Below are positions 14,044-14,640 of a DNA stretch of 64,000 nt, one piece after another (the stretch's first letter is position 1; each line of letters begins with the position of its first letter). The notes under the pieces were generated by a model. It searched no databases. It worked only from the letters and a program-made list of their open reading frames with translations, and was not told the origin of the DNA. Position numbers and translations under genes: made by a program. The stretch covers positions 2,914,001 through 2,978,000 of the forward strand of contig NC_015321.1 of assembly GCF_000194605.1 (NCBI RefSeq), in the 5' to 3' direction. This DNA comes from Fluviicola taffensis DSM 16823. Lineage in GTDB: Bacteria; Bacteroidota; Bacteroidia; Flavobacteriales_D; Crocinitomicaceae.

Positions 14044-14155
14044 AGATTGAACAGAAATAATTTTGAACTTGATAAAGGTATTCATAAATGGTAAAAAGCG
14101 TTATAGTCTTTTTCAAATTAAACTACCTTCATTGGCGCCGAACTATTAGAAAAAA

Positions 14156-14190
14156 AATAAAAGCCTCGCAAAATTTGCAAGGCTTTTATT
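14156..14190 (-). terminator. Duplicated tRNA terminator (copy 1)
   Basis: AATAAAAGCCT and AGGCTTTTATT flank a GCAAA/TTTGC inner stem. On the minus strand the one mismatch becomes a U-G wobble, indicating leftward transcription. It is the same hairpin as at 14527-14557. Confidence 0.75.
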
Positions 14191-14226
14191 TTCAAGTGGG
14201 AAATGAGGGATTCGAACCCCCGACAT
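14159..14226 (-). repeat. Direct repeat copy 1: terminator plus 3' third of tRNA-Val
   Basis: 68 bases identical to 14528-14595 at 66 positions (two mismatches at 14188-14189). The copies are 369 bases apart and flank the GIY-YIG gene. The unit contains the terminator hairpin, the acceptor 3' strand, the T-arm and the variable loop. Confidence 0.9.
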
Positions 14227-14265
14227 TCCCGATTGCTACAGCATATCGGGACACTCTGAACCAAG
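14197..14265 (-). pseudogene. tRNA-Val-like remnant with replaced anticodon arm
   Basis: Read on the minus strand it begins CTTGGTTCAGAG, the D-loop/D-stem end of the nearby tRNA-Val. An unrelated hairpin (TCCCGAT...ATCGGGA around an ATGCTGTAGCA loop) stands where the anticodon arm should be. Then come the intact variable loop, T-arm and acceptor 3' strand. The 5' acceptor strand and a real anticodon are missing, so it is not a functional tRNA. The stop codon of the GIY-YIG gene lies inside its hairpin. Confidence 0.8.
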
Positions 14266-14505
14266 AGAATCAATGAGCTTTTGAATCATACTTCTAGATT
14301 TCCAGTTTTTGATTTTCTTTTCGAATGCCATTGCTTCTGCACGTGTATCAAATCCTTGTGTAAAAACAATTTTCCAATCATGGGTTTGATTTGTAAACCC
14401 TTTGTTCTTGTTATTGTGTTTTTTTAGTCTTTCTGGAGGATTTTCAGAACTTCCGATATAGAATTTATCTTTCGATGATGAATATAGGATGTAAGTGTAG
14501 AAAAT
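14236..14505 (-). CDS. GIY-YIG endonuclease-domain protein inserted beside tRNA-Val
   Basis: About 89 residues spanning a complete small GIY-YIG domain. Seen are the first strands YTYILYSSSKDKFYIGSSEN (the 'Y-I-L...Y-I-G' form of the motif), Arg in ERLKKHNN, and the conserved Glu in AMAFEKKIKNWKSRS. A longer open frame continues upstream only by translating the tRNA itself, which I reject. No ATG, GTG or TTG lies at the expected N-terminus; homologues usually start 'MFYVYIL', and here the matching codon is ATT (14505-14503). So it either uses a rare start or has lost its start codon. The C-terminus (SLGSECPDML) is encoded by the tRNA-like remnant. Confidence 0.65.
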   Translation of the reverse strand: MFYTYILYSSSKDKFYIGSSENPPERLKKHNNKNKGFTNQTHDWKIVFTQGFDTRAEAMAFEKKIKNWKSRSMIQKLIDSLGSECPDML

Positions 14506-14526
14506 GAATGGTGAAGTATTAAAAAG

Positions 14527-14557
14527 AAAAAGCCTCGCAAAATTTGCAAGGCTTTTT
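14527..14557 (-). terminator. Terminator of tRNA-Val (copy 2)
   Basis: AAAAAGCCT / AGGCTTTTT with an inner GCAAA/TTTGC stem, 9 bases after the tRNA 3' end. The minus strand gives a T run after the stem. Confidence 0.8.
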
Positions 14558-14595
14558 CTTTCAAGTGGGAAATGAGGGATTCGAACCCCCGACAT
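14528..14595 (-). repeat. Direct repeat copy 2: within functional tRNA-Val and its terminator
   Basis: The partner of 14159-14226 (66 of 68 bases identical). This copy belongs to the complete tRNA. Confidence 0.9.
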
Positions 14596-14640
14596 CCTGC
14601 TTGTAAGGCAGGCGCTCTGAACCAACTGAGCTAATCTCCC
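14566..14640 (-). tRNA. tRNA-Val (anticodon TAC)
   Basis: 75 bases folding as a full cloverleaf: acceptor GGGAGAT/ATTTCCC with discriminator A, D-stem GCTC/GAGC, anticodon stem CCTGC/GCAGG with loop CTTACAA (anticodon TAC, reading GUA and other valine codons), and T-arm GGGGG-TTCGAAT-CCCTC. CCA is not encoded. It lies 58 bases downstream of folC and could be co-transcribed with it. Confidence 0.95.

Follow-up and report, generated by a model that had tools for sequence, protein, structure and literature searches.

The window analysed here is a 64,000-nt stretch of Fluviicola taffensis DSM 16823 DNA. ARAGORN reports a single tRNA gene in it, a tRNA-Val(TAC) with an Rfam score of 73.2 bits, and a repeat search returned one 75-nt pair (14152–14226 and 14521–14595) with a spacing of 369 nt and 95% identity (71/75). 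There are four mismatches in total, two of them inside a 68-nt span for which the first-pass annotation of this DNA had given 66 identical positions at a distance of 369 bases, and the repeat search bears that observation out. As that annotation also described, each copy contains a tRNA T-arm/acceptor strand and a terminator-type inverted repeat, the right-hand copy is part of the intact tRNA-Val gene, and a GIY-YIG domain lies between the two. Read on the minus strand, the order is tRNA-Val, terminator, GIY-YIG gene with a hairpin at its end, T-arm/acceptor copy, and a second terminator (Table 1). Apart from the tRNA, all matches in an Rfam scan of the unit are below the gathering score.

Table 1. 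Features of the tRNA-Val/GIY-YIG unit, in minus-strand order.
Feature	Position	Strand	Source
Intact tRNA-Val, anticodon TAC (invaded gene)	14565..14640	-	ARAGORN, Rfam
Proximal copy of the 75-bp duplication (T-arm, acceptor 3′ strand, terminator)	14521..14595	-	Repeat search
Terminator-type hairpin behind the intact tRNA; similar stem-loop at occupied tRNA-Val sites of congeners	14523..14561	-	
GIY-YIG gene, from ATT codon (ATG in relatives) to stop; catalytic domain ~14293–14502	14236..14505	-	
D-arm piece TTGGTTCAGAG within the 3′ end of the GIY-YIG gene	14254..14264	-	
Hairpin TCCCGAT...ATCGGGA replacing the anticodon arm; contains the GIY-YIG stop codon	14227..14251	-	
Distal tRNA remnant (variable loop, T-arm, acceptor 3′ strand)	14196..14226	-	
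Distal terminator-type hairpin	14154..14192	-	Repeat search

In the left-hand (outer) copy the anticodon arm is replaced by the hairpin TCCCGAT-ATGCTGTAGCA-ATCGGGA, which also codes for the C-terminus of the nuclease (..CPDML-stop), in agreement with the first-pass annotation. That copy had been described as a tRNA 3′ half; the 3′ half is indeed present, but an 11-nt D-arm piece, TTGGTTCAGAG, read as LGSE in the nuclease frame, is also retained, and the outer copy is therefore more than a 3′ half.

The frame between the copies, P0001 (14236–14532, minus strand; 98 aa), matches Pfam GIY-YIG at 3e-18. The domain spans residues 11–80, and besides it the family search gave only an overlapping T5orf172 match and no extra DNA-binding region. 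Residues Y14, Y25, G27, R35, H39, and E71 are invariant among 27 aligned sequences. The nearest solved structures are those of UPF0213 (9e-13; 1zg2 and 1ywl) and SLX1 (2e-8) rather than of homing enzymes, and because P0001 is a catalytic domain alone with these as its neighbors, sequence-specific cutting is unexplained under a homing view. Phage relatives were sought among 50,697 phage records, with no match at 1e-5. The window gene has ATT (14505–14503) where relatives such as those at L116–L118 start with ATG, so translation may be poor or the gene may be decaying, and this copy is probably aged or inactive.

Identity to the window protein is 65% at L116, 62% at L117, 63% at L118, and 58% in Pedobacter (L119), and the corresponding FolC identities are 75%, 49%, 50%, and 53% (the last over half the length). 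The higher identity of the GIY-YIG protein than of FolC at L117 and L118 (62–63% versus 49–50%) suggests lateral movement of the gene. Pfam GIY-YIG matches four genes in the window's own genome, two of them in long frames (604 and 461 aa). A second small GIY-YIG gene, at 409 kb in the same genome (L001), has no tRNA beside it and lies between two repeat-like stretches that each end in CTCGACATGACAC.

Recurrence and anatomy of the unit in Bacteroidota

Three samples of loci were compared. Homologues of P0001 at 1e-6 are present in 42 of 59 relatives, and the 87 loci fetched from them leave 73 after removal of 11 repeated places and three own-genome loci without a P0001 match. The second sample comprises 78 loci from the best 80 matches in named records, using a query of the tRNA-Val type, and the third the best-scoring 29 loci, besides the window's own, from 148 genomes across the phylum at a family threshold of 1e-8. 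A same-strand tRNA lies within 250 bp upstream of the first GIY-YIG gene in 43/73 relatives' loci, 64/78 of the best-matching named-record loci, and 24/29 of the best-scoring loci in the third sample; an opposite-strand tRNA occupies that interval in none of them (0/73, 0/78, and 0/29). Without the four places common to both, the first two sets together give 103/147. At the tRNA density of the window's own genome, the chance of a same-strand tRNA end within 250 bp upstream is about 0.0012 per random place, and the recurrence of these pairs across samples rules out a chance repeat.

A same-strand tRNA is located downstream in 7/73 relatives' and 3/78 named loci, and takes the place of an upstream one at, for example, L022, L045, L081, L130, and L131. 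Neither an upstream nor a downstream tRNA of this kind is present in 25/73 and 12/78 loci, of which 7 and 5, respectively, start within 250 bp of a contig end. L076 and L083 show no tRNA and L069 only an opposite-strand one, and these three may be of a housekeeping type.

Family members at 1e-8 are present in 92 of the 148 Bacteroidota genomes and in 60 of 83 genera, with 0 to 21 matches per genome, and the tRNA labels at the loci include Val, Met, Asn, Ala, Asp, Leu, Pro, Arg, Gly, Ser, Thr, His, Phe, and Gln. The first-pass annotation had pointed to GIY-YIG frames near tRNA 3′ ends in Bacteroidota; these recur across the phylum samples, which confirms the arrangement and extends it far beyond the window.

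The unit consists of a GIY-YIG ORF of ~80–100 codons that begins shortly behind a tRNA gene with its trailer, extends into a partial copy of the same tRNA gene, and stops in or close to a short palindrome, which takes the place of a loop or arm of that copy. At many loci of the 3′ type the GIY-YIG ATG follows shortly after the T-run of the tRNA terminator, and at tRNA-Val(GAC) loci it is ~15 nt past the tRNA, a proximity that makes expression from the tRNA transcript likely. No leader motif common to the tRNA classes was found ahead of the start, only T-rich sequence. The copied tRNA supplies codons for the end of the protein (e.g. LAQLVRVP.. in the tRNA-Asn type), and the two tRNA copies are ~335–470 bp apart in most loci.

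Of the 121 units that have 90 nt or more of downstream sequence (double places excluded), 81 show a hairpin directly ahead of copied tRNA sequence, and in 58 there is tRNA sequence on both sides of it; the hairpin ends are TCC...GGA in 59/81. The remaining 40/121 have no hairpin by the rule used, which misses at least one plain case (L028). As in the window, the entire anticodon arm is the most frequent site: 33/81 units resume at tRNA position 44–46, and in 20 of these the left part ends at 26–28. Elsewhere the hairpin is in the T-loop (tRNA positions 57/63 in tRNA-Ala and 68/72 in tRNA-Leu) or at positions 37/48 in an initiator-like tRNA-Met. Strong non-terminator hairpins are found in the distal 150 nt of 55/58 named loci versus 19/58 and 7/58 control stretches, and of 25/35 relatives' loci versus 7/35 and 6/35. 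The combination of hairpin and repeated tRNA end seen in the window thus extends to 81/121 units, with both the hairpin sequence and its tRNA position varying by lineage.

Tandem units are frequent, and 31/147 loci have two or more GIY-YIG matches, fragments counted. Genome G120 has an array of eight GIY-YIG units with a period of ~365 bp, which begins from a cut tRNA-Met end and is accompanied by no intact tRNA within the 4.8 kb read, an exception (L280) to the intactness of the invaded gene; in G199 the tRNA is downstream in two arrays. The earlier claim that the tRNA is spared accordingly fits most loci, where an intact tRNA lies directly upstream, but not every array. Similarly, the layout with a regenerated 3′ end is recurrent but not the only one, as there are GIY-less forms and mirror-image loci with the copying on the 5′ side (L045 and L131: hairpin copy, then GIY-YIG gene, then intact tRNA).

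For a tree of the GIY-YIG sequences, 129 of 187 matches remained once short matches and matches containing stops had been removed; the tree has 127 rows (97 labelled by tRNA and 30 unlabelled) and 82 columns, with 56/122 inner branches open. The tRNA amino acid label changes 28 times on it, compared with a shuffled mean of 65.9, and no shuffle of 200 was as low. Among 30 named rows carrying both labels, tRNA type changes 12 times (shuffled 19.6; 0/200 as low) and host order 15 times (shuffled 19.1; 1/200 as low), so that host descent also leaves a mark. GIY-YIG lineages keep to their tRNA type.

Most pairs of GIY-YIG genes are under purifying selection. NG86 dN/dS is 0.02–0.28 in the 32/40 pairs with a defined value and undefined in 8/40. 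In this comparison dS is often saturated, columns with stops were left out, nine of the frames extend 2–8 codons beyond the stop, and L166 has an internal stop; dropping the five L166 pairs leaves 27/35 defined and the range unchanged. A second method, where run, gave 0.04–0.14, and 0.35 for the window gene against L006.

Occupied sites, empty sites, and a dispersed palindrome

The folC–tRNA-Val site was examined in 14 genomes of the window's genus. A GIY-YIG match is present behind the tRNA in G000, G003, G006, G008, and G002, and a truncated one in G001; no match was found at this site in G013, G012, G011, and G010, and G007 has a more distant GIY-YIG gene, farther off. G004 and G005 end at contig ends before the tRNA, and G009 has no folC match. 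The comparison is one-sided, resting on the folC side. A terminator of the AAAGCCTTGC...GCAAGGC type beside the intact tRNA-Val tends to accompany the element: mean trailer identity is 0.60 within occupied sites, 0.36 between occupied and empty, and 0.46 within empty ones, with overlapping ranges. The outer copy in G003 has a different terminator. Two side observations concern these genomes: in G007 a hairpin-marked relic of a tRNA-Val copy without a GIY-YIG gene lies just upstream of the intact gene (L092), and record CP034120.1 (the G003 contig, with L116), titled Glaciecola amylolytica, groups with the window's Bacteroidota genus and is probably mislabelled.

At the tRNA-Gly/tRNA-Leu(TAA) site there is matching DNA on both sides, and G000 lacks a GIY-YIG gene whereas G008 has one. 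The two are 91.4% identical over 406 columns to the trailer end and 91.9% over 149 bp at the next common gene. In G008 a 137-bp stretch from T-loop to trailer end occurs twice, with 100% identity, separated by the GIY-YIG gene and TTCA[TCCCGATAGCTATCGGGA]CCCGC, and 2.8 kb of other DNA follows the second copy. The G000 site is not pristine either, as a palindrome-marked 5′ tRNA copy lies ahead of it. The duplicated DNA need not be cargo of the element; at this site the G008 trailer matches that of the GIY-less congener G000. At tRNA-Asn, G002 has a GIY-YIG gene that is absent from G000, and the DNA matches on both sides with other differences between. Empty sites, proposed as a check in the first-pass annotation, thus exist among congeners at tRNA-Val, tRNA-Leu, and tRNA-Asn. 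Because a unit lost by recombination between its repeats would also leave such a site behind, single sites cannot separate gain from loss.

The palindrome is also dispersed away from GIY-YIG genes. TCCCGAT-N3-12-ATCGGGA has 21 occurrences in the window's own genome and the exact 18-bp form, TCCCGATAGCTATCGGGA, is in 14 places (L101, L102, and L104–L115), with no occurrence of the backward control in either case; by eye, it appears to replace a 3-nt ANT at eleven of the own-genome places. Five of the 14 are in partial copies adjoining intact tRNA-Leu (two genes, one of them with two copies), tRNA-Met, or 5S rRNA genes (L104, L108, two in L109, and L112), and no GIY-YIG match was found at those five. 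Another (L102) is in a stretch resembling tRNA-Phe that belongs to a cluster of unusual tRNAs, and several are in short tandem repeats. Behind tRNA-Met at L112 (1360–1900) are repeated GIY-less units of ~80 bp, each with a palindrome and terminator. A related hairpin is in a 5′ copy of tRNA-Arg, and GIY-YIG genes are located behind tRNA-Arg(TCT) in G001 and G007. Among the relatives the pattern is in 35/59, with the control at zero in all rows. A simple dependence of palindrome number on GIY-YIG number is not supported: G013 has 11 palindromes and no P0001 relative, and G006 has no palindrome and one P0001 relative.

Two further own-genome or shared features were noted in passing. At 646.7–648.2 kb in the own genome (L194) are divergent tRNAs for Leu, Tyr, Pro, Cys, and Ser, with the palindrome in the D-loop of a Phe-like stretch, and the cluster looks like that of a mobile element. 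L206 and L112 share a repeat starting GGATCAAGACCAAATTC behind tRNA genes, perhaps an insertion sequence.

These distributions raise an alternative in which the palindrome is the real mobile unit, entering structure-prone loops of RNA genes and simple repeats during tandem duplication, with insertions in essential RNA genes surviving only in a spare copy and the GIY-YIG gene a later rider. The tRNA, 5S rRNA, and tandem-repeat settings of the 14 exact palindromes and the GIY-less count in G013 argue for it, as does tRNA-Leu of G003, in which the palindrome occupies the same T-loop position as in G008 and the gene's own trailer is duplicated in tandem; the 801 bp read there contain no GIY-YIG gene. 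Most hairpins of GIY-YIG units, on the other hand, deviate from the dispersed palindrome in stem or loop, and the purifying selection on GIY-YIG genes and their fidelity to tRNA type sit poorly with a rider; we consider this alternative unlikely.

A candidate mobile element that spares its tRNA

We think it fairly likely that the window locus represents a mini-element, widespread in Bacteroidota, that is mobile and spares the gene it enters, with cleavage by the nuclease as a presumed step. The nuclease would cut a tRNA gene that lacks the element, at the loop or arm where the palindrome is found today. The break would then be repaired from a copy that carries the element, with the tRNA sequence on either side of the ORF serving as homology, and this repair would insert the ORF and palindrome and duplicate the tRNA end and trailer. 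Since the tRNA end and trailer are duplicated in such a repair, the first tRNA would remain whole. Expression would probably be driven by the tRNA transcript, and recombination between the repeats could give rise to arrays, excision, and ORF-less units. The intact tRNA retains the presumed target, and self-cutting must therefore somehow be avoided. The first-pass annotation had proposed a tiny element that enters a tRNA and regenerates the gene; the recurrence, the copied tRNA end, and the occupied and empty sites agree with this, and ORF-less and 5′ variants exist besides.

We regard the element as a variant of the known homing-type elements that spare the genes they enter; if the palindrome is the centre of the system, it would amount to a new class. 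An enzyme that chooses structures would suit palindromes in loops, although this is a guess. More tentatively, the units might form a new class of minimal elements, in which a single-domain, Slx1-type, structure-choosing GIY-YIG enzyme would cut RNA genes in their loops. Repair would then duplicate part of the gene in tandem, with a palindrome at the cut loop and the intact copy spared. Such a class would have autonomous forms (with the GIY-YIG gene), non-autonomous forms (palindrome only, also in 5S rRNA and simple repeats), and arrays, with the GIY-YIG family in about three in five of the sampled Bacteroidota genomes.

Three other explanations fare worse than the palindrome-centred one. P0001 could be a host gene, a structure-specific repair nuclease of the UPF0213/SLX1 type co-transcribed with tRNAs by happenstance and with the duplications as by-products, as its nearest structures and the purifying selection might lead one to expect; its presence or absence at the same tRNA in congeners, the many tRNA types, the range of 0–21 matches per genome, and the arrays make this very improbable, and presence/absence and copy number disfavour an ordinary host gene in particular, for which one conserved copy in each genome would be expected. 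We are equally doubtful of a role at the RNA level, in which the tRNA copy with its palindrome arm would give the GIY-YIG mRNA a tRNA-like 3′ end that protects or processes it or guides the nuclease. In keeping with such a role, the hairpin substitutes for the anticodon arm between two stretches of tRNA sequence in 20/81 units, and a D-like arm, hairpin, and T-arm form in the fold of the window's outer copy; the acceptor stem does not form in that fold, however, and the T-arm is broken by the hairpin in other units. Finally, a remnant of a larger integrative element with the tRNA 3′ end as attachment site and the GIY-YIG gene as leftover cargo is extremely unlikely, because although the repeated tRNA 3′ end and terminator resemble attL/attR, the spacing of the copies in most loci leaves no room for an integrase (in the window, 369 bp with no enclosed ORF longer than the GIY-YIG frame) and the copy edge is variable within the tRNA and hairpin-bearing. 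Integrative elements that target tRNA genes encode integrases and restore the 3′ end of the tRNA on insertion, so that a partial copy lies at their other end; the present unit differs from these in its size of a few hundred bp as well as in the features just given.

The mobile, gene-sparing reading has closer parallels. The P0001 family has features of homing endonucleases, namely a catalytic domain with conserved residues and congeneric alleles with and without the gene. SegB of phages T4/T6 is described, in the part of the report available, as a free-standing GIY-YIG homing endonuclease beside many tRNA types that cuts within tRNA genes at the motif RAWTSGAAC and drives tandem amplification, for which its authors suggest microhomology of tRNA 5′ and segB 3′ regions (PMC13096335). 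The likeness as far as described there is a GIY-YIG enzyme adjoining tRNA genes of many types and forming tandem units, and by its letters the complement of the SegB motif resembles the T-loop. SegB is phage-borne and, at 221 aa, has a long part outside the domain, whereas P0001 (98 aa) is the domain alone; their best match is a 23-aa motif (E 0.009), indicating no relationship beyond the GIY motif, and the available part of the SegB report describes neither a regenerated tRNA end nor a palindrome (PMC13096335).

The mobile ORFs of fungal mitochondria (atp6 in Allomyces; atp6, atp9, cox2, and nad3 in Glomus) provide a second parallel, in which, according to the portion of the account available, an endonuclease ORF (GIY-YIG in atp9) brings a spare gene 3′ end that replaces the native one, the latter being displaced behind the ORF (PMC3630166). 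A duplicated gene end flanking an ORF, with the invaded gene intact, is common to those ORFs as so described and to the window. They differ in belonging to organelle protein genes and in being larger, and that portion of the account describes no palindrome-marked copy, arrays, or ORF-less forms (PMC3630166). The reported cutting of tRNA genes by SegB and replacement of 3′ ends in fungi mean that both steps of the proposed mechanism have precedents.

With the prokaryotic Slx1-like GIY-YIG proteins (UPF0213), to which its closest structures (1zg2 and 1ywl) belong, P0001 shares a minimal single domain. A 2006 analysis of the superfamily, in its available part, places the origin of selfish GIY-YIG enzymes in the lineage related to UvrC and not in Slx1, and for the Slx1-like family it mentions a fusion with a tRNA methyltransferase and describes no link to tRNA genes (PMC1564403). 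A literature search by title or start of abstract, among the best matches and with most subscription papers and bioRxiv outside its scope, gave no description of the GIY-YIG/tRNA-copy arrangement, and no occurrence of the palindrome letters was found in literature text.

If this interpretation is correct, the unit would be an autonomous selfish element of very small size, with its gene family present in 92 of the 148 sampled Bacteroidota genomes, and a minimal GIY-YIG domain from the repair-enzyme branch would be capable of a selfish life. It would account for odd annotations such as GIY-YIG frames with a start or end read from tRNA sequence and ARAGORN tRNAs with odd anticodons behind GIY-YIG genes, as well as for contigs that end beside them. 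It would also be a case of a parasite protecting the essential gene that it invades, and would tie a dispersed palindrome to duplications of RNA genes.
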